A stretch of 46,339 nt of DNA, from the NCBI RefSeq assembly GCF_021729155.1, contig NZ_JAJQYA010000002.1, positions 255,348 to 301,686 on the forward strand. The letters are read 5' to 3'. Shown piece by piece: positions 24,671 through 39,290 of this stretch (the stretch's first letter is position 1; every line of letters begins with the position of its first letter). A model generated the notes under the pieces. It was not told where the DNA came from, ran no database searches, and saw only the letters and a list, made by a program, of their open reading frames with translations. The DNA is from Membranihabitans marinus (GTDB lineage: Bacteria > Bacteroidota > Bacteroidia > Chitinophagales > Saprospiraceae). The position numbers were made by a program, and so were the translations under genes.

Positions 24671-26089
24671 ATGAGAATGTTTAAGCCATTCAGATATATT
24701 TTAGGAGTGTTCATGTTTTTGCTTTTAGGGGCTATGACTTCTACTGCGCAGGATGTTGATATTCAATTGGGGCAGAAGCTGTTTCGGGCAAATTGTAATT
24801 CATGCCATAACAAAGACATGAAAAGTGATTTGACTGGACCTGCATTGGGGCCTAGTATTGAAGCTTGGAGTGAATTTCCAAGAGAAGATTTGTATGCCTG
24901 GGTGCGCAACTCACAAGAGTTGATCGCTAATGGTCATCCAAGAGCTGTTGAGCTTTGGAATGCCTATAAGCCCACGGTAATGACACCGAATCCCAACTTG
25001 ACGGAGTCGGACATTGAATCAATTTTTGCTTATATTGACGGTGTGTATAGCGGTGCGATTGGAGGACCTCCAGCTGGAGCTGCCGCAGCCGCTGGCGCTG
25101 AAACTGCGAGTAGTGGTAGTGGAGTCAATAGAACGTATTTGGTTTTTGGTGTAGTATTCGTATTGTTGATATTGGTCTTTATCCTTTGGAATATATTGGG
25201 TAAACTGAGAGAGGTTGAAGCGTCACAAGATGGTGTGGATTACCAAAAGTCAACGTTGAAAGAATTATTTACTAGTAAGTCGGCCATAGGTTTATATGTA
25301 CTTGCTATTATTATATGCGGAAGTTATTTTACCGTGAATCGTGCTGTTGATTTAAATAGACAGCAAGATTACCAACCTGAACAACCTATTAAGTTTTCAC
25401 ATGAAACTCATGCTGGTTTGCATAAAATCGATTGTCAGTACTGTCACGATGGAGCTCGTAGAAGTAAGCATTCTGTCATCCCTGCCACAAGTACATGTAT
25501 GAATTGTCATAAAGCAATCCGTAAAGGTTCTACATACGGAACTGCAGAGATTACAAAAATTTACGCTTCTATTGGTTATGATCCATTGAAAGATGCATAT
25601 ATCGAAGATTACGAAGACTTGTCTCAAGATAGTGTGAAGGCTATATTTACAGCGTGGATCGAAGATCAATACGTAGCCGATCAAGGAAGTATGGACTCTA
25701 AAGGTGAGAAATTGGTTCAGCAACAGTGGAATGATATCGTGTCTTCATTGACTACCGATGTGAAGCCAAATGTACAAGGCGCTATTCCGTGGGTGAGAAT
25801 TCACAATTTGCCTGATCACGTGTATTTTAGTCACGAACAGCACGTGTCGGCTGGTGGAGTAGCATGTCAAACTTGTCATGGAGCCATTGAGGAAATGGAA
25901 GTTGTAAAACAGCATTCACCATTGTCAATGGGATGGTGTATCAATTGTCACAGAGAAACACAAGTTGATTTCAATAATGAGTACTATAAAGTGTACACCC
26001 ATTATCATGAAGAAATCAAAGCAGGAACAAGGGGAGGAGTTACCGTGGAAGACATAGGCGGTACTGAGTGTCAAAAATGTCATTATTAA
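24671..26089 (+). CDS. actA: Alternative complex III subunit ActA, hexaheme cytochrome c
   Basis: The 472-residue protein has a signal peptide and six CxxCH heme sites: CNSCH (residue 42) in an N-terminal monoheme domain, then CQYCH, CMNCH, CQTCH, CINCH and CQKCH at the very C-terminus in the pentaheme domain. An Ala/Gly-rich linker (GGPPAGAAAAAGAE) and two membrane segments (about 153-173 and 205-222) separate the two domains. ActA collects electrons from the iron-sulfur clusters of ActB and passes them towards the oxidase. It is the first gene of the actABCDEF operon. Confidence 0.93.
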   Translation: MRMFKPFRYILGVFMFLLLGAMTSTAQDVDIQLGQKLFRANCNSCHNKDMKSDLTGPALGPSIEAWSEFPREDLYAWVRNSQELIANGHPRAVELWNAYKPTVMTPNPNLTESDIESIFAYIDGVYSGAIGGPPAGAAAAAGAETASSGSGVNRTYLVFGVVFVLLILVFILWNILGKLREVEASQDGVDYQKSTLKELFTSKSAIGLYVLAIIICGSYFTVNRAVDLNRQQDYQPEQPIKFSHETHAGLHKIDCQYCHDGARRSKHSVIPATSTCMNCHKAIRKGSTYGTAEITKIYASIGYDPLKDAYIEDYEDLSQDSVKAIFTAWIEDQYVADQGSMDSKGEKLVQQQWNDIVSSLTTDVKPNVQGAIPWVRIHNLPDHVYFSHEQHVSAGGVACQTCHGAIEEMEVVKQHSPLSMGWCINCHRETQVDFNNEYYKVYTHYHEEIKAGTRGGVTVEDIGGTECQKCHY

Positions 26090-26148
26090 TATATTAGGCT
26101 TTATCATAATTATATAGTCCAAAGAATAAATTTAAATTCACTCAAACT

Positions 26149-29100
26149 ATGAGTCTAAAGAATAAAGGTCAAATTTGGAATGGTACTGAAGACATAAAGA
26201 ATTCAGAATCTTTTGTAGAGAAAAAAGAAAATGAGTTTTTTAATCTTCCAATTTTAAACGAATTGAGCAAAGAAGGTGGTCAACAGACTCCCGTGCAAAG
26301 TGCCAGTAGAAGAGATTTTTTAAAGTATGTAGGATTTAGTGTCGGTGCAGCAGCTGTAGCAGCAAGTTGTGAGACTCCGGTTCGTAAGGCTATTCCTTAT
26401 GTAACCAAACCCGATGCTATTGTGCCTGGTGTTGCCACTTACTATGCATCTTCGTTTTTTCAAGGTGGGTATTACTGCCCAGTCTTGGTAAAAACCAGAG
26501 AAGGTAGACCCATTAAAATAGAAGGGAATGCCCTTTCCACTTTCTGTGGAGGTGGAACCAGTGCTAGAGTTCAAGCTTCTGTGTTGGATTTATATGATAG
26601 AAGTAGATACCAACAGCCTAAGAAAAAGTCGGGAGAAGATTGGACAAATCTTACTTGGAGTGATTTGGATAAAGAGGTTGTACAAAAATTGAAAGGGAGT
26701 AAAAATATCCGTGTTGTAACCAATTCCATCATAAGTCCTTCTTATAAAAAAGCGTTGGCGGAATTTCAAGCAACTTATCCTGCAGCTAAGGTGGTTACTT
26801 ATGATCCAATCTCTTCATCTGCTATTTTGTTGGCTAGTGAAAAGGATTTCGGGGCGAAAGTAATTCCTGGATATGATTTCTCTAAAGCCGACTATATTCT
26901 AAGTTTCGGAGCAGATGTTTTGGGTACTTGGATTTCTCCAGTACAATTTGCCAATGAAATTTATAAAAATAGAAAAATATCCAAAGTAAGTGGTGCCAAG
27001 ATGAATAAACTCGTCATGGTTGAATCACATATGTCTCTGACCGGTTCTAATGCAGATGAAAAAGTATTAATTCGACCTTCAGAGCAAGGTATGGCCATAG
27101 CCACCATATACAATTTCTTGAGTGCAGGACCTAAGGTGTCAGTGGGTGGAAGTTTTAGCAATCCCAAAGCGGAAGCTAAATTGAAGAGAATAGCACAAGA
27201 ATTAAAAAGTTCAAAAACATCAATTGTTGTTTCTGATTCTAATAATACTACAGAGCAGCAATTAATCAATAGAATCAATCAGAGTTTACAGAATATAGGG
27301 AAAACGGTAAAACCAAACCAACCTATATATGTAAAACAAGGTGTAGATAAAGACATTCAAGATTTCAAAAACGAATTGGCTGGTAATAAGGTTGATGCGG
27401 TTATCTTCTTAGATGATGCCAATCCGGTATACGATACACCATTTGGTAAAGAAATTCAATCTGCATTGGCCAGTGTTTCTTTGGTAGTTTCTTGTAGTAA
27501 TAGAATAAACGAGACTGCACAAAGTTCTGGTTATGTGGCTCCAGTAGATCACTACTTAGAGGCTTGGGGTGATTTGCAACCCAATGAAGGGCTTCTAGCT
27601 ATAGTACAACCTACCATTGAGCGATTGTTTGATACTCGAAGCGCCGCCGAATCATTGTTGGTGTGGGCAAATCATTCAATAGCTTCAGCTATCCAAAATG
27701 CTAAAAAAGGAGACGAAAGAGCTTATTATAGTTTTATAAAAGATACTTGGAAAACTGATTTGTTTCCAAAACAACAAACCTATAATACTTTCAGATCATT
27801 CTGGGAGAATAGTGTACACGATGGATTTAGCTTAACTAATGGCCAAATGGAATCCGTTTCTACTTCGGTTCAGGGAAGCTTAGTCGGTAAAATTACTAGT
27901 CCGAGCAGTGAGGAAGTAGAATTGAAGTTGTTTGAATCTATGGGTGTTGGTAATGGAGTATTTGCGAATAATCCTTGGTTACAAGAAATGCCAGATCCTA
28001 TTACTAGAGTAGTATGGGACAATACTTTACAAGTGCCTTTGCACTGGGATGGTAGCAATCATTTTGAGGTATTCAATGACTTGGAAGAGGATGGTAGTAT
28101 GGTTGAAGTGTCAGTTAAAGATGCTTCGGTTCAATTGCCTACAGTTCAACAGTTTGGACAACAAGGAAATACAGTATCTACAGCTTTGGGATACGGACGT
28201 GAAGTTTGTGGTCAAGCTGGTTTAGATGTAGGAAAAAATTTCTATAGCCAATTGCCAGTTGATGGTGAAGGAAACATACAATATTATGTGCCCGGTGTAA
28301 GTGTGAGCAAGGCCAATGGTAAAGATGAAGAATTTGCCATCGTTCAATATCACCATACCATGGGTGTAAGAGGAGAAGATGCAACTGATGGGGGCAAAAC
28401 CATCAATGTCGATGAAAAGTCAATGATGCATTTCTTCAATGGTTTTCAAGGTTCATTGACCGATAGGACGATCATTCGTCAATCGACCATCAGTGAATTG
28501 GAAGAAAATGTAGAACATTTAGTAAAAGAAAGAGAACATGCTCAACACTTAAATGAGCAAACACTATATCCCGATCACGATTATCAATACAAACAAGGTC
28601 ATCACTGGGGGATGTCGGTTGATTTAACTTCTTGTATTGGTTGTTCTGCTTGTCAAGTAGCTTGTGTAGCGGAAAACAATGTGCCAATAGTTGGTAAAGA
28701 AGAGGTTCATAGACATCATGAGATGACTTGGATGCGTATAGATAGATATTACTTTGGAGATGCTGAGAATCCCAATGTAGTGTATCAACCTATGATGTGT
28801 CAGCACTGTGACAATGCACCATGTGAGAATGTATGTCCGGTTGCAGCTACCAATCACAGTTCAGAAGGATTGAATCAAATGGCTTACAACAGATGTGTAG
28901 GTACTAGATATTGTGCCAATAACTGTCCTTATAAAGTACGTAGATTTAACTGGTTGGATTATACTACTGCGGATTTATTCCCAGTGAACGAGAACAATCC
29001 ATTTGGAGAAGAAGATTCTTTCTACACCGACAACTTGGTGAGAATGGTTCTAAATCCAGATGTGACGGTTAGATCAAGAGGGGTTATAGAAAAATGTAGC

Positions 29101-29373
29101 ATGTGTGTACAGCGTATACAGGAAGGAAAATTGAAGGCTAAAGTTGAAAATAGAGCTTTGAAAGATGGTGAAATTAAGACGGCCTGTCAAACGGCTTGTC
29201 CGACTGGAGCTATTGTTTTCGGAGATATGAATGATAAATCTTCTGAATTGTCAGAGTTGTTGGAAAGTCCATTGACATATTACGCTTTAGAAGAAGTCAA
29301 CACTAGATCTTCGATAGGATATAAAATGAAGGTTTTAAATAAACCTGCTGAGCAAGAAATAATTGAATCATAA
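26149..29373 (+). CDS. actB: Alternative complex III subunit ActB, molybdopterin-like and iron-sulfur fusion
   Basis: The 1074-residue periplasmic subunit carries a Tat-type signal (SRRDFLKYVGFSVGAAA) ending in a lipobox-like ASC near residue 80. The large middle part is a molybdopterin-oxidoreductase fold of the type that has lost its cofactor in this complex. The C-terminal third is a ferredoxin domain with four cysteine groups: CIGCSACQVAC, CQHCDNAPCENVC, the group around RCVGTRYCANNCPYKVRRFNW (described, not a single motif), and CSMC plus CQTACPTGA. These should hold four clusters (3Fe-4S and 4Fe-4S) linking the quinol site in ActC to the hemes of ActA. Confidence 0.93.
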   Translation: MSLKNKGQIWNGTEDIKNSESFVEKKENEFFNLPILNELSKEGGQQTPVQSASRRDFLKYVGFSVGAAAVAASCETPVRKAIPYVTKPDAIVPGVATYYASSFFQGGYYCPVLVKTREGRPIKIEGNALSTFCGGGTSARVQASVLDLYDRSRYQQPKKKSGEDWTNLTWSDLDKEVVQKLKGSKNIRVVTNSIISPSYKKALAEFQATYPAAKVVTYDPISSSAILLASEKDFGAKVIPGYDFSKADYILSFGADVLGTWISPVQFANEIYKNRKISKVSGAKMNKLVMVESHMSLTGSNADEKVLIRPSEQGMAIATIYNFLSAGPKVSVGGSFSNPKAEAKLKRIAQELKSSKTSIVVSDSNNTTEQQLINRINQSLQNIGKTVKPNQPIYVKQGVDKDIQDFKNELAGNKVDAVIFLDDANPVYDTPFGKEIQSALASVSLVVSCSNRINETAQSSGYVAPVDHYLEAWGDLQPNEGLLAIVQPTIERLFDTRSAAESLLVWANHSIASAIQNAKKGDERAYYSFIKDTWKTDLFPKQQTYNTFRSFWENSVHDGFSLTNGQMESVSTSVQGSLVGKITSPSSEEVELKLFESMGVGNGVFANNPWLQEMPDPITRVVWDNTLQVPLHWDGSNHFEVFNDLEEDGSMVEVSVKDASVQLPTVQQFGQQGNTVSTALGYGREVCGQAGLDVGKNFYSQLPVDGEGNIQYYVPGVSVSKANGKDEEFAIVQYHHTMGVRGEDATDGGKTINVDEKSMMHFFNGFQGSLTDRTIIRQSTISELEENVEHLVKEREHAQHLNEQTLYPDHDYQYKQGHHWGMSVDLTSCIGCSACQVACVAENNVPIVGKEEVHRHHEMTWMRIDRYYFGDAENPNVVYQPMMCQHCDNAPCENVCPVAATNHSSEGLNQMAYNRCVGTRYCANNCPYKVRRFNWLDYTTADLFPVNENNPFGEEDSFYTDNLVRMVLNPDVTVRSRGVIEKCSMCVQRIQEGKLKAKVENRALKDGEIKTACQTACPTGAIVFGDMNDKSSELSELLESPLTYYALEEVNTRSSIGYKMKVLNKPAEQEIIES

Positions 29374-29392
29374 ATTTTGAGAATATAATACT

Positions 29393-30808
29393 ATGAGTGC
29401 AGTTGTATCACCCATACGCGAACCCTTAATAACGGGTCGAAAATCTTACCACGATATTACGGAAGATATTTGTGCCCCATCGGAAAGGGCGCCCAGTTTA
29501 ACTTGGGTATTCGCTTTTATCGTAGCCGTAACACTATTGGGCTTCGGTGTTTTTTCGATCTTGTGGACTATCTGGTTTGGGATAGGGTCTTGGAATTTGA
29601 ATAGAACCATTGGATGGGGATGGGATATCACCAACTTTGTATGGTGGGTAGGTATCGGTCATGCAGGTACCCTGATTTCAGCCATCTTGTTGTTGTTTAG
29701 ACAAAAATGGCGTACTGGTGTAAATAGAGCCGCTGAGGCCATGACCATATTTGCGGTAATCTGTGCCGCCTTGTTCCCAGGTATACACGTGGGTAGAATG
29801 TGGGTTATTTTCTTTTTCTTCCCAGTACCGAATACAAGGGGTCCATTGTGGGTAAACTTTAATTCACCGTTGTTGTGGGATTTATTTGCCATTAGTACAT
29901 ACTTTACAGTTTCGTTATTGTTTTGGTATACTGGTTTGGTCCCAGATTTTGCAACTTTGAGAGACAGAGCAAGTGGATTGCGTAAGAAATTTTACAATTT
30001 CCTTTCATTTGGTTGGACAGGATCGGCAAAACACTGGTCTAGATTTGAATCTCTTTCATTGATCTTGGCTGGATTGGCTACACCGCTAGTACTTTCAGTA
30101 CACACTATTGTATCCTTTGACTTTGCCACTTCAGTTATTCCTGGTTGGCATACAACGATATTCCCTCCATACTTTGTGGCTGGTGCCATCTTCTCTGGTT
30201 TCGCCATGGTGCAGACCTTGATGTTGATCACTAGAAAAGTATTGAAATTGGAAGATTATATCACCTTACAACACATAGAATCTATGAACAAGGTAATCTT
30301 GTTGACCGGTACTATGGTAGGTGTGGCATATTTAACTGAGTTATTTATCGCTTGGTATTCAGGATATGTATACGAGCAATTCGCCTTCCTGAATAGAGCA
30401 TTTGGTGTTTATTGGTGGGCATATTTTGCGATGATGACATGTAATGTTTTGTCTCCACAGATATTCTGGTTTAAGAAGATGCGTCGAAGTATTTTTGTGA
30501 CATTCGTGATGTCTATCTTCGTGAATATCGGTATGTGGTTTGAGCGTTTTGTAATTATTGCAACTACACTAGCTAGAGATTATTTGCCTTCAAGTTGGAG
30601 TTATTATACGCCTACATGGGTGGAGATAGGAATTTATTTAGGCACCTTTGGTATCTTCTTTACTTTTTATTTGTTGTTCACTCGAATTGCTCCAGTGGTT
30701 GCAATTGCAGAGGTGAAATCTATATTGAAATCTTCAGGGGATCAATATATTGAAGAACATGAGAAGCACTATCAAAAGGCAATAGACAATAAAGTAAAAC
30801 AGCATTAA
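29393..30808 (+). CDS. actC: Alternative complex III subunit ActC, NrfD-like quinol-binding membrane protein
   Basis: The 471-residue protein has about ten membrane helices and belongs to the NrfD/PsrC family, which binds menaquinol at the periplasmic face. Conserved segments include WWVGIGHAGTLISAIL, FPGIHVGRMW, the SFDFATSVIPGWHTTIFPPY loop and ERFVIIATTLARDYLPSSW. His and Asp/Glu residues in these loops are the expected quinol and proton ligands. It lies 19 bp after actB and 10 bp before actD. Confidence 0.95.
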   Translation: MSAVVSPIREPLITGRKSYHDITEDICAPSERAPSLTWVFAFIVAVTLLGFGVFSILWTIWFGIGSWNLNRTIGWGWDITNFVWWVGIGHAGTLISAILLLFRQKWRTGVNRAAEAMTIFAVICAALFPGIHVGRMWVIFFFFPVPNTRGPLWVNFNSPLLWDLFAISTYFTVSLLFWYTGLVPDFATLRDRASGLRKKFYNFLSFGWTGSAKHWSRFESLSLILAGLATPLVLSVHTIVSFDFATSVIPGWHTTIFPPYFVAGAIFSGFAMVQTLMLITRKVLKLEDYITLQHIESMNKVILLTGTMVGVAYLTELFIAWYSGYVYEQFAFLNRAFGVYWWAYFAMMTCNVLSPQIFWFKKMRRSIFVTFVMSIFVNIGMWFERFVIIATTLARDYLPSSWSYYTPTWVEIGIYLGTFGIFFTFYLLFTRIAPVVAIAEVKSILKSSGDQYIEEHEKHYQKAIDNKVKQH

Positions 30809-30818
30809 TTAATACGGG

Positions 30819-31349
30819 ATGGAAACAACGAACAAAAGTATATTATTTGGTTTGTACAATGACGAAGAAATTGTACTTCAGGCCTTAAAGGAGGCCAAAG
30901 GTCAGCATCTTGATGTTTACGATGTCGTTTCACCATTTCCTATCCATGGATTGGATCCATTGTTGGGTATTGAAGAATCGCGTCTTCATATTGCTGGATT
31001 CTGTTTCGGTTTGGTGGGTACATTGACAGCCTTTTTGGGGATGTCTTGGATCTTTACTAAGGATTGGCCGATGATATTTGGGGGGAAACCATACTGGTCA
31101 GTACCTGCATTTATCCCTATTACCTTTGAATTGACAGTATTATTTGCCTCTATTGGTATGGTAATTACTTATTATGCTATCAACGGTATGGGACCTGGTG
31201 TAACCAATCCTGTATTACACGATCGATTGACAGATGATAAATTTGCAATTGCCTTTGATGCGGGGAATGCTTCCGAAGATGAAATAAATAAATTCAAGGC
31301 TTTCTTGGAGAATACAGGAGCCGATGAAATACAAATGAAAACTATATAG
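30819..31349 (+). CDS. actD: Alternative complex III subunit ActD (DUF3341)
   Basis: The 176-residue protein has a cytoplasmic N-terminal domain (ILFGLYNDEEIVLQALKEAK, then DVVSPFPIHGLDPLLG, the family's signature) followed by two membrane helices (about 63-85 and 100-125). DUF3341 proteins are structural subunits of alternative complex III. The stop codon is followed directly by the actE ATG. Confidence 0.93.
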   Translation: METTNKSILFGLYNDEEIVLQALKEAKGQHLDVYDVVSPFPIHGLDPLLGIEESRLHIAGFCFGLVGTLTAFLGMSWIFTKDWPMIFGGKPYWSVPAFIPITFELTVLFASIGMVITYYAINGMGPGVTNPVLHDRLTDDKFAIAFDAGNASEDEINKFKAFLENTGADEIQMKTI

Positions 31350-32177
31350 ATGAAAAAGTTAGTTCAAATATATACATTAAGTCTATTCCTGTTGGGACTT
31401 GGTTTGCTTCAAAGCTGTAGTCCTGCGAAGGATAATAATCCAGGAAGCGAATATATGCCAGATATGTTTCACTCTATAGCATATGAGGCTAACCTAGACG
31501 ATTACTATTATTACAATACTTGGGGAGATCACCAAGATTACTATAAATTGGCGGTTCCTAGAGAACCTGTTAAAGGAACAATTCCTTTCGGTCAGTTTGC
31601 GATGAAAGACGGAAAGTATAGTGATGCAATGGCATCTACTGTGATGGATATAGAAGAGAATGGTTCAGTTCCATCCGAATATGAAAATTCAGAAGAGGGT
31701 AGATTGGAAGCAATAGCTTCTATCAGAACAAATCCTTTTCCAATTACCGATGAAGCTTTAGTAATAGGTAAAAATTTATACACGGTTTACTGTGCATTGT
31801 GTCACGGTGACAAAGCCGATGGATTGGGTTATTTGGTAAGAGACGACGGTGGTAAATACCCTGTTGCACCGGCCAATTTAATCGATGCCAAATTTGTGGA
31901 TACAACTGCTGGTGTATTTTATTACGCCATAGAGTATGGTAAAAATGCCATGGGTTCTTACGCTGATAAATTGTCTTATAAAGAGCGTTGGGATGTAATA
32001 CATTATATCCGTTCTTTGCAAGCAAAAGAAGCAAAATTGGAGTATTCACCTACTAAAAATACATTTATGCCCAATGAAGCGCAAACTGCTAAAATGGTAG
32101 CGAGTCATTCGGCGACTGCATCAGTGGTTATGGAAGATGAACATGAAGACAGTCACAGTGAACACGGAACACATTAA
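31350..32177 (+). CDS. actE: Alternative complex III subunit ActE, monoheme cytochrome c lipoprotein
   Basis: The 275-residue product has a lipoprotein signal (GLLQSCS) and one heme site (CALCH) with a probable distal methionine in the KNAMGSYADKL segment of a class I cytochrome domain. The N-terminal 110 residues are a Tyr/Asp-rich region (YMPDMFHSIAYEANLDDYYYYN, here only described) typical of ActE. A His/Glu-rich tail (EDEHEDSHSEHGTH) may bind metal. In supercomplexes ActE is a candidate to hand electrons to the oxidase. Confidence 0.92.
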   Translation: MKKLVQIYTLSLFLLGLGLLQSCSPAKDNNPGSEYMPDMFHSIAYEANLDDYYYYNTWGDHQDYYKLAVPREPVKGTIPFGQFAMKDGKYSDAMASTVMDIEENGSVPSEYENSEEGRLEAIASIRTNPFPITDEALVIGKNLYTVYCALCHGDKADGLGYLVRDDGGKYPVAPANLIDAKFVDTTAGVFYYAIEYGKNAMGSYADKLSYKERWDVIHYIRSLQAKEAKLEYSPTKNTFMPNEAQTAKMVASHSATASVVMEDEHEDSHSEHGTH

Positions 32178-32209
32178 TAAAATTAGAGCTTTTAAAAAGA
32201 GATAGGATA

Positions 32210-33520
32210 ATGAAGCAATTTGAAATATCGAGTAAACAGAAATCTGTACTATTTGGATTTATGGGCGTTGGTTTGCTGTGTTTAATCATCACCTTCTTTA
32301 TAGACGATGCATATCGTCCAAGGTTTTGGTCTAATTTTTTAATTAATAGTGTATTTTTTACCGGGATATCTTTTATCGCATTGTTTATACTTTGCGCTAA
32401 ATTTATAGCCTATTCTGGCTGGCAAACGGTATTTAAAAGACTTTGGGAAGCATACACTCAATTTTTAATAGTGGGATTAATTTTAATGGCCATTATTATA
32501 GTTGGTTTGTTTGGAGGATTTCATCATCTATATCATTGGAATGATGCTGCATCTTTGGCATCAGATACTTTATTGCAAGGTAAATCTGGGTTTTTAAATG
32601 CTGGAGTATATACGGTGTTGACTTTGGGTATTGTCGGTGTATGGTATTTCTTTGCACGTAAAATAAGAGCACTTTCTATCTCTGAAGATGGACAGACAAC
32701 ATTTAGCCGAATAACCCATCAGAAATTGAAAAAATGGTCAGCTGGATTTTTACCTATCGGTGGATTTACTTCTGCTGCATTGGTTTGGTTGTGGATTATG
32801 TCAGTAGATGCCCATTGGTATAGCACATTGTATGCATGGTATGTAACGGCTAGTTGGTTGGTATCTATGTTGGCTTTGACAGTATTGTTGTTGCACTACT
32901 TCAAGACCTTGGGATATTTTGAATATGTGACTGTGGATCACTTTCACGATTTGGGAAAATATATATTTGGTTTTAGCATATTTTGGACTTATTTGTGGTT
33001 CTCACAATTTATGTTGATCTGGTATGGCAATGTTGGGGAGGAAACGATATACTTTAAGACGAGACAAGATCTTTATCCTGCGCTGTTTTACGGGATATTA
33101 ATTATCAATTTTGTTTTGCCATTTTTCATCCTCTTGCGCAACGATACCAAAAGAAAAACTGGAACTATGGTAGCAGCGAGTGTTATCGTATTTATCGGTC
33201 ACTGGTTGGACTTTTTCTTAATGATTAAACCTGGTGTACTTCATACTTATCACGAAGTAGCCGGTGGTGGACATGGACATGCAAGTATGAATGCAGATCA
33301 ATCTATGACTGCTAAATTAATCTCAGATGCTGGAGCACACGGGGCAGAACACGCTTCTACTTTTCAAATGGGCTTCACCATTCCAGGATTTTTAGAATTT
33401 GGAACATTTTTAGGGTTTTTAGGACTGTTTTTATATTTCGTTTTTATCCAATTGGGTAAAGCCAATTTAGTTCCTAAAGGAGATCCTTATTTAGGAGAAA
33501 GTATGAATCATCACGTTTAA
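32210..33520 (+). CDS. actF: Alternative complex III subunit ActF, NrfD-like
   Basis: The 436-residue membrane protein is the second, shorter NrfD-like subunit, with about ten helices. WIMSVDAHWYSTLYAWYVTAS is the characteristic motif of this subunit (described here by its positions around residues 197-217). A His-rich loop (YHEVAGGGHGHASM, AGAHGAEHAS) lies before the last helix. ActF lacks the quinol site of ActC and may take part in proton transfer. It closes the act section, 24 bp before coxB. Confidence 0.92.
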   Translation: MKQFEISSKQKSVLFGFMGVGLLCLIITFFIDDAYRPRFWSNFLINSVFFTGISFIALFILCAKFIAYSGWQTVFKRLWEAYTQFLIVGLILMAIIIVGLFGGFHHLYHWNDAASLASDTLLQGKSGFLNAGVYTVLTLGIVGVWYFFARKIRALSISEDGQTTFSRITHQKLKKWSAGFLPIGGFTSAALVWLWIMSVDAHWYSTLYAWYVTASWLVSMLALTVLLLHYFKTLGYFEYVTVDHFHDLGKYIFGFSIFWTYLWFSQFMLIWYGNVGEETIYFKTRQDLYPALFYGILIINFVLPFFILLRNDTKRKTGTMVAASVIVFIGHWLDFFLMIKPGVLHTYHEVAGGGHGHASMNADQSMTAKLISDAGAHGAEHASTFQMGFTIPGFLEFGTFLGFLGLFLYFVFIQLGKANLVPKGDPYLGESMNHHV

Positions 33521-33544: not shown

Positions 33545-35041
33545 ATGACGCTATTGGTCGGAATATTAGTATTTGCACTGTTTGTCATCATCACGATACA
33601 AATAGGTAAAATCACGGAAGTGTCTCGGTCTCTTCGTGGAGAAGAGGACTGGAAGTGGGTTAGTTCTAAGCGTACCGGAATATTTTTAATGATCTTCATG
33701 GGATTGTTATTGATTCTAACTATAGGTTCAGCTTATTATTATAAAAACTATATGTTGGGTTACGGACCCCATGTTGCTGCATCAGCACATGGTAGTTCAA
33801 TTGACGAAATTTTTAATATTACCGTATTTTTTACTGGTATCGTCTATGTGATTACCCATATTTTATTATTCTATTTTGCTTATAAATACAGAGAAAGAAA
33901 AGGGCATAAGGCTTCTTTTATTTCTCATGATAACAAATTAGAAATGATATGGACAGTAATTCCAAGTTTGGTTTTGGTTATCCTAGTATTGAAAGGTTTG
34001 GTAGCATGGAATAGTGTAATGGCCGATGTACAAGCCGATGAGGAATTTATGGAAATTGAGGCAACTGGTATGCAGTTTAGTTGGATAATTAGATATCCAG
34101 GTGAAGATGGTCAGTTAGGAGCTAGAAATTTCCAAGATATTACAGGGGTGAATCCCTTGGGTCAAGATTGGACCGATGGGAAGAATATCGATGATTTACA
34201 GCCCAGTGATATTGTTTTACCTAAAGGTAAGCAAGTAAGGGTGAGAATCTTGTCGAGAGATGTACTTCACAACTTTTTCCTGCCTCATTTTAGAATGAAA
34301 ATGGATGCTGTACCTGGAATGCCTACTTATTTTGTATTTACTCCCGAGGTGACAACTGAAGAATATCGTCAAAAATTAAGCGCATTTCCGGAATATCAAG
34401 TTCCTGCTGATCCAGAGGATCCGAATGGTCCGCAAAAATGGGAAACCTTCGAATTTGAATTGGCTTGTGCTGAGTTGTGTGGTTCTGGACACTTTTCAAT
34501 GCGTAAGGTTGTGCGAATCGTTGAACAAGCTGAGTATGATGCTTGGTTGAGCGAACAAACACCGTACTATTTCTCTTCAATAAGAGGAAAAGATGCCGAT
34601 CCGTTTAAAGGTCAATTATTTGACTTCGAAATAGAACAGCGCAAAAAAGACTTTGAAAACAGTATGTACGAAACAATGTACAAAGAGTTGGAAGGAGATG
34701 AGGCGAGAATGTTTAAATTGGAGAATGTTTTGTTTAATACTGGTTCTGCAAGTTTACAAGATATCTCTAAATATGAGTTGGCCAATCTTGCCGACTTTAT
34801 GAAAGCAAATAAAGATTTAAAAATTGAAATACAAGGTCACACAGACAATACAGGTGAAGTTGAAAAAAATCAAGTGTTGTCACAAGCTAGGGCAGACGTT
34901 GTATTAAATTATTTATTGAGTCATGGCATTGGAGAAGATAGAGTTTCTGCTGTAGGATTTGGATCGAGCCAACCTATTGATACCAATGATACAGATTCGG
35001 GTAGAAGCAATAATAGAAGAGTAGAATTAAGAATTCTGTAA
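33545..35041 (+). CDS. coxB: Cytochrome c oxidase subunit II fused to an OmpA-type peptidoglycan-binding domain
   Basis: The 498-residue protein has four hydrophobic segments in its first 150 residues, then a cupredoxin domain with a complete CuA site: His in DVLHNFF, and Cys308, Cys312, His316 and Met319 in CAELCGSGHFSM. There is no heme motif. After a charged linker (about 340-385) comes a full OmpA_C-like domain (385-498) with GHTDNTG, NQVLSQARADVV, RVSAVGFGSSQPI and NRRVELRIL. Asp434 and Arg449 match in spacing the diaminopimelate-binding pair of OmpA. Ordinary subunit II ends near residue 345-400. The frame is continuous, so the fusion is real in this sequence. The C-terminus should face the periplasm, where it could grip peptidoglycan. 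Confidence 0.92.
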   Translation: MTLLVGILVFALFVIITIQIGKITEVSRSLRGEEDWKWVSSKRTGIFLMIFMGLLLILTIGSAYYYKNYMLGYGPHVAASAHGSSIDEIFNITVFFTGIVYVITHILLFYFAYKYRERKGHKASFISHDNKLEMIWTVIPSLVLVILVLKGLVAWNSVMADVQADEEFMEIEATGMQFSWIIRYPGEDGQLGARNFQDITGVNPLGQDWTDGKNIDDLQPSDIVLPKGKQVRVRILSRDVLHNFFLPHFRMKMDAVPGMPTYFVFTPEVTTEEYRQKLSAFPEYQVPADPEDPNGPQKWETFEFELACAELCGSGHFSMRKVVRIVEQAEYDAWLSEQTPYYFSSIRGKDADPFKGQLFDFEIEQRKKDFENSMYETMYKELEGDEARMFKLENVLFNTGSASLQDISKYELANLADFMKANKDLKIEIQGHTDNTGEVEKNQVLSQARADVVLNYLLSHGIGEDRVSAVGFGSSQPIDTNDTDSGRSNNRRVELRIL

Positions 35042-35064: not shown

Positions 35065-36909
35065 ATGAATACAGAAGTAAAAAATTACGATACACAGGCA
35101 GAACAAATTATTGAGACCCAAGGGTATGACGATCATTTTCATGATCATCATCACGGGGACAAATATCAGTCTGGGTTTTTTGGCAAGTACATCTTTTCCT
35201 TGGATCACAAGATTATTGGCCGTCAATTTTTAATTACAGGTATGATATGGGCCATCATCGGTGCCGCAATGTCTGTAATATTTAGATTGCAACTGGGTTT
35301 TCCTGAAGCAGATCTCGAATGGTTAAAGCCTATTTTAGGAAAATGGATCATTGTAGATAACGGTATAGGATCATTGTCACAAGAGTTTTATTATGCTTTG
35401 GTAACCATGCATGGTACTATTATCGTATTTTTTGTATTGACTGCTGGTTTAAGTGGTACATTTAGTAATTTACTTATTCCATTGCAAATCGGTGCTCGAG
35501 ATATGGCATCACCTCTAATGAATATGTTGTCTTATTGGTTCTTTTTCTTAGCCAGTATGGTAATGTTGTTTTCGTTGTTTCTAAGTACTGGACCCTTTGC
35601 AGGGGGCTGGGTTGCCTATCCTCCGCTGTCGGCTCTACCGCAGGCATCTACAGGTTCTGGAGCTGGTATGACGCTATGGCTTATCAGTTTGGTGCTTTTC
35701 GTGGTATCTACGCTTTTGGGAGGTGTCAATTATATTACTACCGTACTTAATTTGCGTACCAAAGGAATGTCATTGTGGAGAATGCCTTTGACTATCTGGG
35801 CTTTCTTTGTAACTGCTGTTATTGGTTTGTTATCTTTTCCTGTATTAGTGGCTGGATTCTTATTGTTGATGTTTGATAGAAGTTTGGGAACAAGTTTCTA
35901 TTTGAGTGAGATATTTATTGGGGGCCAAGCACTGGATCACGTAGGTGGTAGTCCAATCTTATATCAGCATTTATTCTGGTTCTTAGGTCACCCTGAGGTA
36001 TATATTATTATACTTCCTGCCATGGGTATTGTATCAGAAGTATTGTCTGTCAATAGTAGAAAGCCAATCTTTGGTTATAGAGCCATGGTTTATTCTATTT
36101 TAGCGATTGCATTTTTGTCCTTTATCGTATGGGCTCACCATATGTTTATGGCTGGTGTGAATCCTTTCTTGTCTAGCATTTTTACCATATTTACACTGAT
36201 CATTGCAGTACCTTCTGCGGTTAAGGTGTTTAACTGGATTACAACGATATATAAAGGTAACTTTAGGTTTAATCCGGCATCATTATTTGCCATTGGATTT
36301 GTATCTATGTTTATCTCTGGGGGTTTAACTGGTATCTTTTTAGGAAACTCAGTTTTGGACATTCAATTGCACGATACATATTTTGTAGTAGCTCACTTTC
36401 ACATTGTAATGGGAGTAGCTGCTTTCTTCGGTATGTTTTCTGGAATCTATCACTGGTTCCCAAAAATGTACGGAAGGTTTATGAATGAAACACTTGGTCG
36501 TATCCATTTCTGGGGTACCATTATAGGGGCTTACGTGGTATTCTGGCCTATGCACTATCTAGGTTTATTTGGTGTTCCGCGTAGATATTATAGTTTTGAT
36601 CAGTTTGATACTTTTAGAGATTTTGGTGATATCAATCAATTTATTACCATCGGTGCGATATTAACTTTCTTTGTACAGATTTTATTTGTAATTAATTTCT
36701 TCTACAGTATCTGGAACGGACGAAAAATGAAGTCTAAAAATCCGTATAAAGCCAATACTTTGGAATGGACTACTCCAATAGAAACAGGACATGGTAACTG
36801 GCCAGGAAAAATTCCTACTGTTACAAGATGGCCTTATGATTATGGAAAAGATGGGGAAGATTACATTCCTCAGGTGATCCCTTTGAAAGAAGGTGAAGAA
36901 GAACATTGA
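35065..36909 (+). CDS. coxA: Cytochrome c oxidase subunit I (A1-type heme-copper oxidase)
   Basis: The 614-residue, twelve-helix catalytic subunit has its heme a and a3/CuB ligands in MHGTIIVFF, GHPEVYIIILP (CuB histidine, the cross-linked tyrosine and the D-channel glutamate of type A1), AHHMFM and HDTYFVVAHFHIVM. It reduces oxygen to water and pumps protons. The N-terminus carries a His-rich stretch (DDHFHDHHHGDK), and the C-terminus is extended and acidic. It lies 23 bp after coxB. Confidence 0.97.
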   Translation: MNTEVKNYDTQAEQIIETQGYDDHFHDHHHGDKYQSGFFGKYIFSLDHKIIGRQFLITGMIWAIIGAAMSVIFRLQLGFPEADLEWLKPILGKWIIVDNGIGSLSQEFYYALVTMHGTIIVFFVLTAGLSGTFSNLLIPLQIGARDMASPLMNMLSYWFFFLASMVMLFSLFLSTGPFAGGWVAYPPLSALPQASTGSGAGMTLWLISLVLFVVSTLLGGVNYITTVLNLRTKGMSLWRMPLTIWAFFVTAVIGLLSFPVLVAGFLLLMFDRSLGTSFYLSEIFIGGQALDHVGGSPILYQHLFWFLGHPEVYIIILPAMGIVSEVLSVNSRKPIFGYRAMVYSILAIAFLSFIVWAHHMFMAGVNPFLSSIFTIFTLIIAVPSAVKVFNWITTIYKGNFRFNPASLFAIGFVSMFISGGLTGIFLGNSVLDIQLHDTYFVVAHFHIVMGVAAFFGMFSGIYHWFPKMYGRFMNETLGRIHFWGTIIGAYVVFWPMHYLGLFGVPRRYYSFDQFDTFRDFGDINQFITIGAILTFFVQILFVINFFYSIWNGRKMKSKNPYKANTLEWTTPIETGHGNWPGKIPTVTRWPYDYGKDGEDYIPQVIPLKEGEEEH

Positions 36910-36955: not shown

Positions 36956-37846
36956 TTGAAAGTCTTACAACATAGTTTACATCTAATAGGGGAAACCTTT
37001 CGTGACATTTCATTACTGATGAAATTCAAGTTGAGTTTACTCGTAGTATTTACTTCTTCTTTGGCATTTATTATGGCTGGAGGAAGTGGAATGGGGTTAC
37101 ATTCTTTTGTAATATTTATTATGGGTGGATTTCTAGTTACGGGTTCTGCGAACGCCTTAAATCAGATTATCGAAAAAGATTACGATAGTTTGATGAGTCG
37201 GACAAAGGATAGACCTGTAGCTTCTGGTAGAATGGCTATTTCTTTTGCGATTTTGCTGGCGGGAGCCATGTGTATTAGCGGACTTTTATTATTGGCCTAT
37301 TTCAATACATTGACAGCCTTACTAGGTGCTCTTTCTGTGATATCATATGCCTTTATTTATACTCCATTGAAAAGATATTCACCAATAGCAGTATTTGTAG
37401 GTGCTTTTCCAGGAGCATTACCAGTATTAATTGGTTGTGTGGCAGTTACAGGAGAAATTACTACCTTTGCGCTATTGTTATTTGCCATTCAGTTTTTTTG
37501 GCAATTTCCCCATTTTTGGGCAATTGGTTGGTTATCATTTGATGACTATAAAAAAGCTGGGTTTAAATTAGTACCTGTAGTTGATGGTAAAATTGATGCT
37601 GGTATAGGTAAACAGTCTTTGTTTTATACAATAATGATACTTCCTGCATCAATATTGTTTTATCTAAATGGATTTATACCATTGATAGGATTGATATTGT
37701 TGTTGGTTGGCGCTGTCTACTTTATCTATAAGGCGTATTTGTTTTTCAAAGAACCTTCAGATTTTTCAGCAAGAAAGTTGTTATACGCATCTTTGTACTT
37801 TTTACCCATCATATTTAGTGTACTTTTATTTAACATGAATGGATAA
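36956..37846 (+). CDS. ctaB: Protoheme IX farnesyltransferase (heme O synthase)
   Basis: This multi-pass membrane prenyltransferase (296 residues) attaches farnesyl to heme B, making heme O for the oxidase. The allylic diphosphate site is seen in NALNQIIEKDYDSLMSRTKDRP, described as the paired N-x3-D and D-x3-M-x-R-T motifs, and a second acidic loop follows at SFDDYKKAG. A TTG at 36956 gives the longest product. An ATG at 37019 would remove 21 residues before the first helix and is a possible alternative. It sits inside the oxidase gene cluster. Confidence 0.93.
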   Translation: MKVLQHSLHLIGETFRDISLLMKFKLSLLVVFTSSLAFIMAGGSGMGLHSFVIFIMGGFLVTGSANALNQIIEKDYDSLMSRTKDRPVASGRMAISFAILLAGAMCISGLLLLAYFNTLTALLGALSVISYAFIYTPLKRYSPIAVFVGAFPGALPVLIGCVAVTGEITTFALLLFAIQFFWQFPHFWAIGWLSFDDYKKAGFKLVPVVDGKIDAGIGKQSLFYTIMILPASILFYLNGFIPLIGLILLLVGAVYFIYKAYLFFKEPSDFSARKLLYASLYFLPIIFSVLLFNMNG

Positions 37847-37849
37847 CCA

Positions 37850-38431
37850 ATGGAAGTAAGTATGCAAGCAAATAAAGCAAAGAATAATTCAGTTCACCAA
37901 TACAAATTCGCCCTGTATTTGGGAATTGCTGGATTGGTAATGATGTTTGCTGCTTTGTCGAGCGCATACATGGTTAGACAAGGGGCAGGAAATTGGTTAG
38001 AATTCCGTTTGCCCAATATGTTTTATGTAAGTACAGTGGTTATTTTGTTGAGTAGTGTAAGTTTAAGATATTGTTTAACCAGTTTCAAGAACGGCAAAAA
38101 GACAGCCTATATTTCATCCTTACTAATTACCTGTGTATTGGGAGTAGCGTTTTTATTTACTCAATATGCTGGTTGGATGGAGATGTATAACAGTGGTATC
38201 GATTTAAAGGGAAATCCTGCTGGATCCTTTGTATATGTGTTGACTTTTTTACACGCCTTTCACGTATTGGGAGGGATAGCGGTTCTCGGTGTCGCATTAT
38301 ATCATTGTTTAACCTTGAGTTTTAAGGTAAGCAAGCAGCGAATATTAAGATTAGAATTGACCAGTATATACTGGCATTTTGTAGATATACTTTGGATTTA
38401 TTTATTATTATTTTTCATTTTGCAAAGATAA
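37850..38431 (+). CDS. Cytochrome c oxidase subunit III, first copy
   Basis: The 193-residue protein has five membrane helices and the subunit III signatures LHAFHVLGG and YWHFVDILWIYL. It lacks the first two helices, like many bacterial subunit III proteins. Tandem subunit III-like genes are usual in Bacteroidota oxidase clusters. It starts 3 bp after ctaB; an in-frame ATG 12 bp downstream is an equally possible start. Confidence 0.92.
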   Translation: MEVSMQANKAKNNSVHQYKFALYLGIAGLVMMFAALSSAYMVRQGAGNWLEFRLPNMFYVSTVVILLSSVSLRYCLTSFKNGKKTAYISSLLITCVLGVAFLFTQYAGWMEMYNSGIDLKGNPAGSFVYVLTFLHAFHVLGGIAVLGVALYHCLTLSFKVSKQRILRLELTSIYWHFVDILWIYLLLFFILQR

Positions 38432-38441
38432 ATTTTTAACA

Positions 38442-39290
38442 ATGGCAACAGATACTTTGTCAGAAATCAAGAAGACGACCCAAGAAGGTCAAGGAGATTG
38501 GATGGGTGGAAAACCACCTATGAAGGCTAGTTATGGCAAATTGATGATGTGGTATTTCTTATTATCAGATGCTTTTACTTTTTCAGGTTTCCTAATAGCT
38601 TATGGAGCATTGAGAATGAGTGTACCTACCTGGCCGGTACCGGATTTTGTATTCCAAAGTTTCCCTGGTGGATTTACAGGAATGCCATTGATATTTGTAA
38701 CGGTCATGAGTTTTGTTTTGATCATCAGTTCTGTAACCATGGTTAGAGCGGTTCAGGAAGGTAAGAGAGAGAACAAAAACGGAGTGGTTTTTTGGATGTT
38801 AATGACGGTGATTGGAGGTATTGGTTTTTTGAGCTGTCAAGCTTATGAGTGGTACAATCTTATTGCAGTGGAACACATGACTCTATATGAAAATCCATTT
38901 GGTTCACATACTGTGGATGGGGTTTATATCAACGATGATGGAAGCAAAGGAGAAGCTTTTAAAGCTGGGCAATCCTATTTAGTTCACAAGACAGATGGAG
39001 AATTTCATTTTAGAAAATTTGAGATAACTAGTGGAGAGAATGCTGGAGAGATAGCTTATGAGACTCTGGGGCCAAAAGCTTTTGGTGCATTGTTTTACTG
39101 TATTACCGGATTTCACGGATTTCACGTACTTTCTGGGGTATTATTTTTATTGATAATTGCTATCAATGCAGCAAGTGGTCTTTATGTCAAACGCAAGAAT
39201 GGCTATGAGATGGTAGAAAAAATAGGGCTTTATTGGCACTTTGTGGATTTGGTCTGGGTATTTGTTTTCTTGGTATTTTACTTACTATAA
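38442..39290 (+). CDS. Cytochrome c oxidase subunit III, second copy with a large loop insert
   Basis: The 282-residue protein has the same subunit III core (FHGFHVLSGVLFLL, YWHFVDLVWVFVFL) but carries an insert of about 70 residues (roughly 147-216, from MTLYENPFG to YETLGPKA) between the third and fourth helices. The insert is hydrophilic and rich in Gly, Asp and Glu and should lie on one membrane face. It probably contacts other subunits of the complex. The gene lies 10 bp after the first copy. Confidence 0.92.
   Translation: MATDTLSEIKKTTQEGQGDWMGGKPPMKASYGKLMMWYFLLSDAFTFSGFLIAYGALRMSVPTWPVPDFVFQSFPGGFTGMPLIFVTVMSFVLIISSVTMVRAVQEGKRENKNGVVFWMLMTVIGGIGFLSCQAYEWYNLIAVEHMTLYENPFGSHTVDGVYINDDGSKGEAFKAGQSYLVHKTDGEFHFRKFEITSGENAGEIAYETLGPKAFGALFYCITGFHGFHVLSGVLFLLIIAINAASGLYVKRKNGYEMVEKIGLYWHFVDLVWVFVFLVFYLL

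Follow-up and report, generated by a model that had tools for sequence, protein, structure and literature searches.

The stretch of Membranihabitans marinus DNA analysed here (the window, 46,339 nucleotides) contains an operon for a putative alternative complex III (ACIII) and a cytochrome c oxidase (Table 1). Its gene for oxidase subunit II (COX2) is a single open frame, running from ATG to stop with zero interruptions, in which a domain of the OmpA type follows the oxidase subunit at the C-terminus. Pfam places COX2_TM at residues 76–149 (1.8e-10) and the COX2 periplasmic domain at residues 219–259 (1.5e-09), both above the gathering score, and the NCBIfam CoxB model gives 135.8 bits, slightly below its equivalog cut-off of 147.7. 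An AlphaFold2 model built from a 28-row alignment (mean pLDDT 86.4, pTM 0.69) shows the COX2 domain, then a linker with one helix, then the OmpA-like domain, and Foldseek matched it to the COX2 chains 7atn_B (E 2.5e-13) and 2yev_B. Both the hairpin and the periplasmic domain of a cytochrome c oxidase subunit II are thus present by Pfam and Foldseek. Four long N-terminal helices are predicted in the model (2–31, 33–69, 83–114 and 130–158), in agreement with the preliminary description, made from the DNA letters, of an uninterrupted frame with four membrane segments. The intact CuA site given there (Cys308, Cys312, His316 and Met319) likewise stands: H242, C308, E310, C312, H316 and M319, which we take to be the CuA ligands, are invariant in all 28 aligned fusions, and the motif is complete.

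The C-terminus of COX2 faces the periplasm. No CXXCH motif occurs anywhere in the 498 residues, and no cytochrome c family appears in the Pfam hits or among the best 25 of the 49 NCBIfam hits. The protein is therefore not a subunit II of the caa3 type. Instead, residues 396–491 match the Pfam OmpA family (PF00691) over the whole profile, positions 1–98 of 98, with 83.3 bits against a gathering score of 27.2 (1.7e-23). The closest solved relatives are 5wtp (5.5e-20) and 5wtl (3e-19); 5wtp, the best of them, represents the C-terminal domain of Capnocytophaga OmpA, and its chain 5wtp_C matches the model in Foldseek with a TMt of 0.83. Across the 28 fusions, the distance from W334 of the COX2 part to G400 of the OmpA part is 50–86 residues (median 64).

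The full OmpA_C-like domain proposed earlier, with Asp434 and Arg449 at a spacing of 15 residues, is borne out by the complete profile match and by the pair itself, which is invariant in 28/28 aligned COX2 fusions. In a wider comparison, D434, R449 and N442 are retained in all 31 COX2-fused domains and in all 19 domains fused to another protein of the operon, ActE (see below). The pair is also present in 29 of the 31 other OmpA domains compared, so it is ordinary for the family and no special sign of the fusions. In A. baumannii OmpA, the residues described as binding diaminopimelate, Asp271 and Arg286, are likewise 15 residues apart (PMC5974059). The M. marinus genome encodes the diaminopimelate epimerase DapF.

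ActABCDEF-like genes lie upstream of the fusion gene in that order, all on its strand, with further oxidase genes downstream, and the order is the same in relatives; the linked ACIII of the preliminary description is thus confirmed as an operon order. We take the genes at 24671–33520 to be actA to actF, an assignment in which most NCBIfam matches fall to related families and stay below cut-off, while two genes lack any match. In R. marinus and F. johnsoniae, ACIII and an oxidase are described as physically associated (PMC5928083), and the two complexes may be associated in M. marinus as well.

Table 1. Features of the ACIII–oxidase operon and of the COX2-OmpA fusion (positions in the window).
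Feature	Position	Strand	Basis or remark
ActA-like multiheme cytochrome c, N-terminal monoheme-type cytochrome c domain 31-122	24671..26089	+	Pfam Cytochrome_C7, Cytochrome_CBB3
ActB-like molybdopterin oxidoreductase/iron-sulfur fusion	26149..29373	+	NCBIfam MoCo_extend_TAT over cut-off; QrcB, QrcC below
ActC-like NrfD-type membrane subunit	29393..30808	+	NCBIfam DsrP below cut-off; operon order
ActD-like small membrane subunit	30819..31349	+	NCBIfam: none; operon order, same position in relatives
ActE-like monoheme cytochrome c lipoprotein	31350..32177	+	Pfam Cytochrome_CBB3 and Cytochrom_C only; lipobox-like LLQSC
ActF-like membrane subunit	32210..33520	+	NCBIfam: none; operon order, conservation
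COX2-OmpA fusion, 498 aa	33545..35041	+	Subunit II of cytochrome c oxidase, OmpA domain C-terminal
COX2 part, residues 76-340, two-helix hairpin and CuA domain	33770..34564	+	Pfam COX2_TM, COX2; Foldseek
CuA motif C308-A-E-L-C312-G-S-G-H316-F-S-M319, H242 upstream	34466..34501	+	Alignment of 28 fusions
Linker, residues 341-390, predicted helix 360-378	34565..34714	+	AlphaFold2 model
OmpA-type peptidoglycan-binding domain (predicted), residues 396-491	34730..35017	+	Pfam; PDB relatives; fold match
Asp434 to Arg449, predicted diaminopimelate-binding pair	34844..34891	+	Alignments of fused domains
Cytochrome c oxidase subunit I	35065..36909	+	NCBIfam CtaD_CoxA 2.9e-177, below equivalog cut-off
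Heme o synthase CtaB	36956..37846	+	NCBIfam cyoE_ctaB over cut-off
Subunit III-like protein	37850..38431	+	NCBIfam subunit III models, below cut-off
Second subunit III-like protein	38442..39290	+	NCBIfam subunit III models, below cut-off

The fusion is common among relatives of M. marinus. A search of 60 genomes of the order, its own included (37 of the same family and 23 others), found a match running through the OmpA domain in at least 26 of the 37 family genomes (own included) and at least 2 of the 23 others, among the matches listed. Both other genomes of the genus that were searched carry it, contrary to the absence in close relatives that the preliminary description had named as grounds for refutation. 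Among the remaining 11 family genomes, three have the OmpA domain on ActE, six have a COX2 without OmpA (ActE was not seen in one of these), and two (G012, G024) have no listed COX2 match. The oxidase can therefore manage without the domain, and the fusion is no rule of the family. In a phylum sample of 395 genomes, COX2 matched in 85 at E 1e-45 and the match reached the OmpA end in 5, which are the five same-family genomes listed in the sample. Among named records, Membranihabitans maritimus is closest (75%) and has the fusion. It is likewise present in Lewinella sp. W8, Neolewinella antarctica, Lewinella sp. IMCC34183 and an Aureispira record, and it is absent from the records found for Phaeodactylibacter xiamenensis, Pedobacter, Mucilaginibacter and Chitinophaga; P. 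xiamenensis has no OmpA domain on ActE either. A search of plasmids returned 797 matching records, none covering 80% of the query.

Two loci are unusual in their setting. One record labelled Thermoanaerobaculia contains a Saprospiraceae-like COX2-OmpA operon (54% identity), probably through a binning error. In another genome (G028), the COX2-OmpA gene has no ACIII genes in the flank retrieved and an ActE match lies on another contig, so the fusion also exists with the two clusters separated.

Evolution is faster in the OmpA part than in the COX2 core, yet the OmpA part is under purifying selection in both fused pairs that could be measured. Its dN/dS is 0.20 (vs. 0.04 for the COX2 core) between the window and locus L062, and 0.18 between L245 and L251, with dS near saturation in each; dS was saturated in most pairs, and the second comparison took pairs with a COX2-core dS under 2. 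Three loci (L130, L131 and L282, of which L282 and L130 appear to be the same contig) have a COX2 whose OmpA-shaped tail no longer contains the Asp/Arg motif. Between the decayed tails of L130 and L131, the one such pair measured, dN/dS is 0.16, and in four pairs that set an intact tail against a decayed one it is 0.51–1.38. The constraint on the motif-less tail suggests that it may serve another role in that lineage.

What is new beyond the fusion in the window is a second site for the same kind of domain. M. marinus ActE has no OmpA domain, and in some relatives without the COX2 fusion the domain stands at the C-terminus of ActE, the cytochrome c subunit of ACIII. Within the operons of 56 relatives, OmpA is on COX2 in 27, on ActE in 6 and on neither in 23. 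We extended the count to 167 loci, the window excluded, made up of these 56 relatives, 79 named records and 32 further loci; 11 lacking one gene were dropped, which left 156 operons with both genes readable (COX2 61, ActE 21, neither 74, both 0). Decayed tails were scored as neither, and the partly masked ActE frame of L058 as ActE-fused from its operon position and its two ends. Because the named records partly repeat genomes of the other two sets, near-copies were also removed, defined by an identical COX1 stretch of 240 residues in COX1 sequences of at least 350 aa; the 138 operons then remaining, window included, divide into 51 with the domain on COX2, 18 on ActE, 69 on neither and 0 on both.

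That no operon carries both fusions is suggestive of mutual exclusion, which after correction for kinship is weakly supported and not proven. A raw Fisher test gives p 1.5e-05 and ignores kinship. Mapped on an 80-row COX1 tree, the COX2-fusion label changes at least 15 times, with 6 changes forced by the starred branches, and the ActE-fusion label 6 times, with 4 forced. A likelihood-ratio test of dependence between the two labels, run on one tree with one optimiser start for the dependent model, gives a ratio of 9.6 (4 df, p 0.047). Traits simulated independently showed zero overlap in 15 of 77 and 2 of 69 runs, these being the runs out of 500 each that were kept for tip counts near those observed, and an independent-pairs test was not significant. 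Taken together, these kinship-aware tests stop short of firm proof.

A phylum-wide search for ActE-OmpA returned one match, unfused, among 296 genomes at E 1e-38, a limit that missed the window's own genome and listed family genomes, so the search excludes little. A structure model of ActE-OmpA rested on 5 rows (mean pLDDT 50.0) and was set aside. Separately, a clade of six loci (L047, L260, L261, L262, L276 and L277) has a long C-terminal tail on COX2 that is not OmpA and appears helical by eye; three of the six have OmpA on ActE.

The domain trees argue against a single ancient origin of the COX2-fused domains. A tree of the 31 COX2-fused, 19 ActE-fused and 31 other OmpA domains was built, and a second tree of 74 rows left out seven long-branched paralog rows from six loci. 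With 114 columns kept in the alignment, many forks are unsettled, and the bootstrap had not converged. The AU test on the 74 rows rejected one clade of COX2-fused domains (p 0.012) and one clade of all fused domains (p 3.4e-05), but not one clade of ActE-fused domains (p 0.057). Sister copies were found within single genomes. The COX2 tail of G054 shares 61% identity over 146 aa with the end of a further protein of that genome (L303), and the ActE tail of G504 shares 76% identity over 127 aa with the OmpA insert of that genome's SecDF (L310). Tree tests and sister copies together indicate that the OmpA module was captured more than once, apparently by two partners that share an operon and, within a single genus, also by a translocase. 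OmpA domains are plentiful, with 4 to 20 matches per genome at E 1e-12 in 10 genomes (operon copies included), so such fusions may arise easily.

The translocase is SecDF, which carries an OmpA domain in its periplasmic region in two genomes of one genus (L310:550-3321 in G504, where Pfam was run, and L320 in G486). A full-length SecDF-OmpA match was found in 2 of the 18 genomes searched, both in that genus.

We propose that the ACIII–oxidase assembly is probably tethered to peptidoglycan from its periplasmic face through the OmpA domain of COX2. The domain, on a linker of about 60 residues at the periplasmic C-terminus, would bind diaminopimelate-containing peptidoglycan, and would thereby hold the oxidase, and through it the ACIII that feeds it, to the cell wall. 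The 50–86-residue span and the intact Asp/Arg pair suggest that the domain can reach the diaminopimelate of the wall and hold it. The benefit might lie in keeping the assembly in place, or in using an abundant complex as a link between inner membrane and wall. In some relatives, an OmpA domain on ActE would do the same job from the other partner, and its occurrence there is a point in favour of the tether. The 20 Å map of R. marinus shows oxidase subunit II next to the cytochrome subunits of ACIII, among them ActE (PMC5928083), so a domain carried by either of the two partners could occupy a similar place. However, the F. johnsoniae supercomplex is said to differ in architecture from that of R. 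marinus (PMC5928083), so the neighbourhood may not carry over and the similar place is a guess. The same source reports, without assignment, a periplasmic density above ActE in the R. marinus ACIII map.

A broader version of this proposal is possible, though we hold it only tentatively: Saprospiraceae and their kin would immobilise the ACIII–oxidase assembly on the wall by an OmpA domain repeatedly grafted onto whichever partner, COX2 or ActE, has a free periplasmic C-terminus, as one case of a wider habit that includes SecDF and fixes both respiration and secretion in space.

A rival reading accepts the binding step and denies any respiratory gain. The OmpA domain would bind the wall for the sake of envelope structure, with abundant respiratory complexes anchoring or spacing inner membrane and wall as Pal and OmpA do at the outer membrane, which amounts to the second benefit option above. 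The same kind of module in the periplasmic region of SecDF (2/18 genomes, one genus) argues for it, since a host need not then be respiratory; however, the recurrent hosts are COX2 and ActE, partners in one operon, and we regard this reading as somewhat unlikely.

The domain might instead be a protein–protein module that dimerises, joining two oxidases or an oxidase and ACIII, without binding the wall. OmpA-like domains are able to dimerise, and the OmpA C-like protein PA0833 forms a dimer in solution, but it binds peptidoglycan too (PMC5974059); and while one lineage keeps an OmpA-shaped tail without the Asp/Arg pair, constrained in the single pair measured, the pair is invariant in 50/50 fused domains compared. 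We consider dimerisation in place of wall binding improbable.

Slightly less probable still is that domain shuffling produced the fusion as a nearly neutral by-product, tolerated because the C-terminus of an aa3-type COX2 is free. Its patchy presence (at least 15 label changes on the COX1 tree, 6 forced), the decayed tails and the many OmpA domains per genome would fit such a by-product, but the binding residues are invariant in the compared fused domains, both measurable fused pairs are under purifying selection, and the same two partners captured the domain more than once. Finally, a sequencing or assembly artefact, whether a frameshift or an assembly join as the preliminary description had considered, is ruled out by the relatives, in which the identical architecture recurs in many separate assemblies, some titled as cultured strains.

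To our knowledge, it is an open question whether the respiratory complexes of bacteria drift freely or are anchored, and by what. With the fusion present in some close relatives and absent in others, and sometimes placed on the partner complex, these bacteria offer a natural series of enzymes, some possibly tethered and others not. For ActE, a possible wall-binding role can now be considered beside the effect of its loss in F. johnsoniae, where growth was slower and cytochrome aa3 activity unimpaired (PMC8552683). The preliminary description knew of no account of such an oxidase, and we too found neither a COX2-OmpA nor an ActE-OmpA protein described among the papers listed in searches of the open-licence PMC literature or in passages of PMC8552683, PMC5928083, PMC8076601, PMC5974059, PMC9000952 and PMC12487129. 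The parts of the fusion are already known, and their combination appears new relative to the literature found.

OmpA domains usually reside in outer-membrane proteins, lipoproteins and flagellar motor proteins, and the names of the hits agree. The M. marinus domain has its sequence family, its fold and the Asp/Arg pair in common with the OmpA C-terminal, Pal and MotB domains (PF00691; 5wtp, 3td3, 4g4v, 6ysl), whereas its host is an oxidase. The caa3 subunit II (e.g. 2yev) likewise bears an extra soluble domain at its C-terminus, but that domain is a cytochrome c, where M. marinus adds OmpA. With the aa3 subunit II described beside ACIII in F. johnsoniae, the M. marinus protein shares the two-helix hairpin, the CuA motif and the ACIII operon, and differs by the C-terminal OmpA domain. 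ActA of F. johnsoniae is described with an additional cytochrome c domain (PMC5928083, PMC8552683), as is seen in M. marinus ActA, and the COX2 C-terminus would be left free for another module. A close parallel in kind is photosystem I of Gloeobacter violaceus, an energy-converting membrane complex whose PsaB (7F4V chain aB) has, like M. marinus COX2, a C-terminal OmpA domain (residues 754–864; E 2.3e-09, or 9.3e-23 with the A1 profile), though the host is a photosystem in the one and an oxidase in the other. The structure 7F4V is assigned to Gloeobacter in PMC9000952, and term searches of that paper gave no mention of peptidoglycan, OmpA, C-terminal or extension. Wall anchoring of energy-converting membrane complexes thus has a parallel, and by analogy MotB and Gloeobacter PsaB may serve as precedents for the anchoring proposed here.
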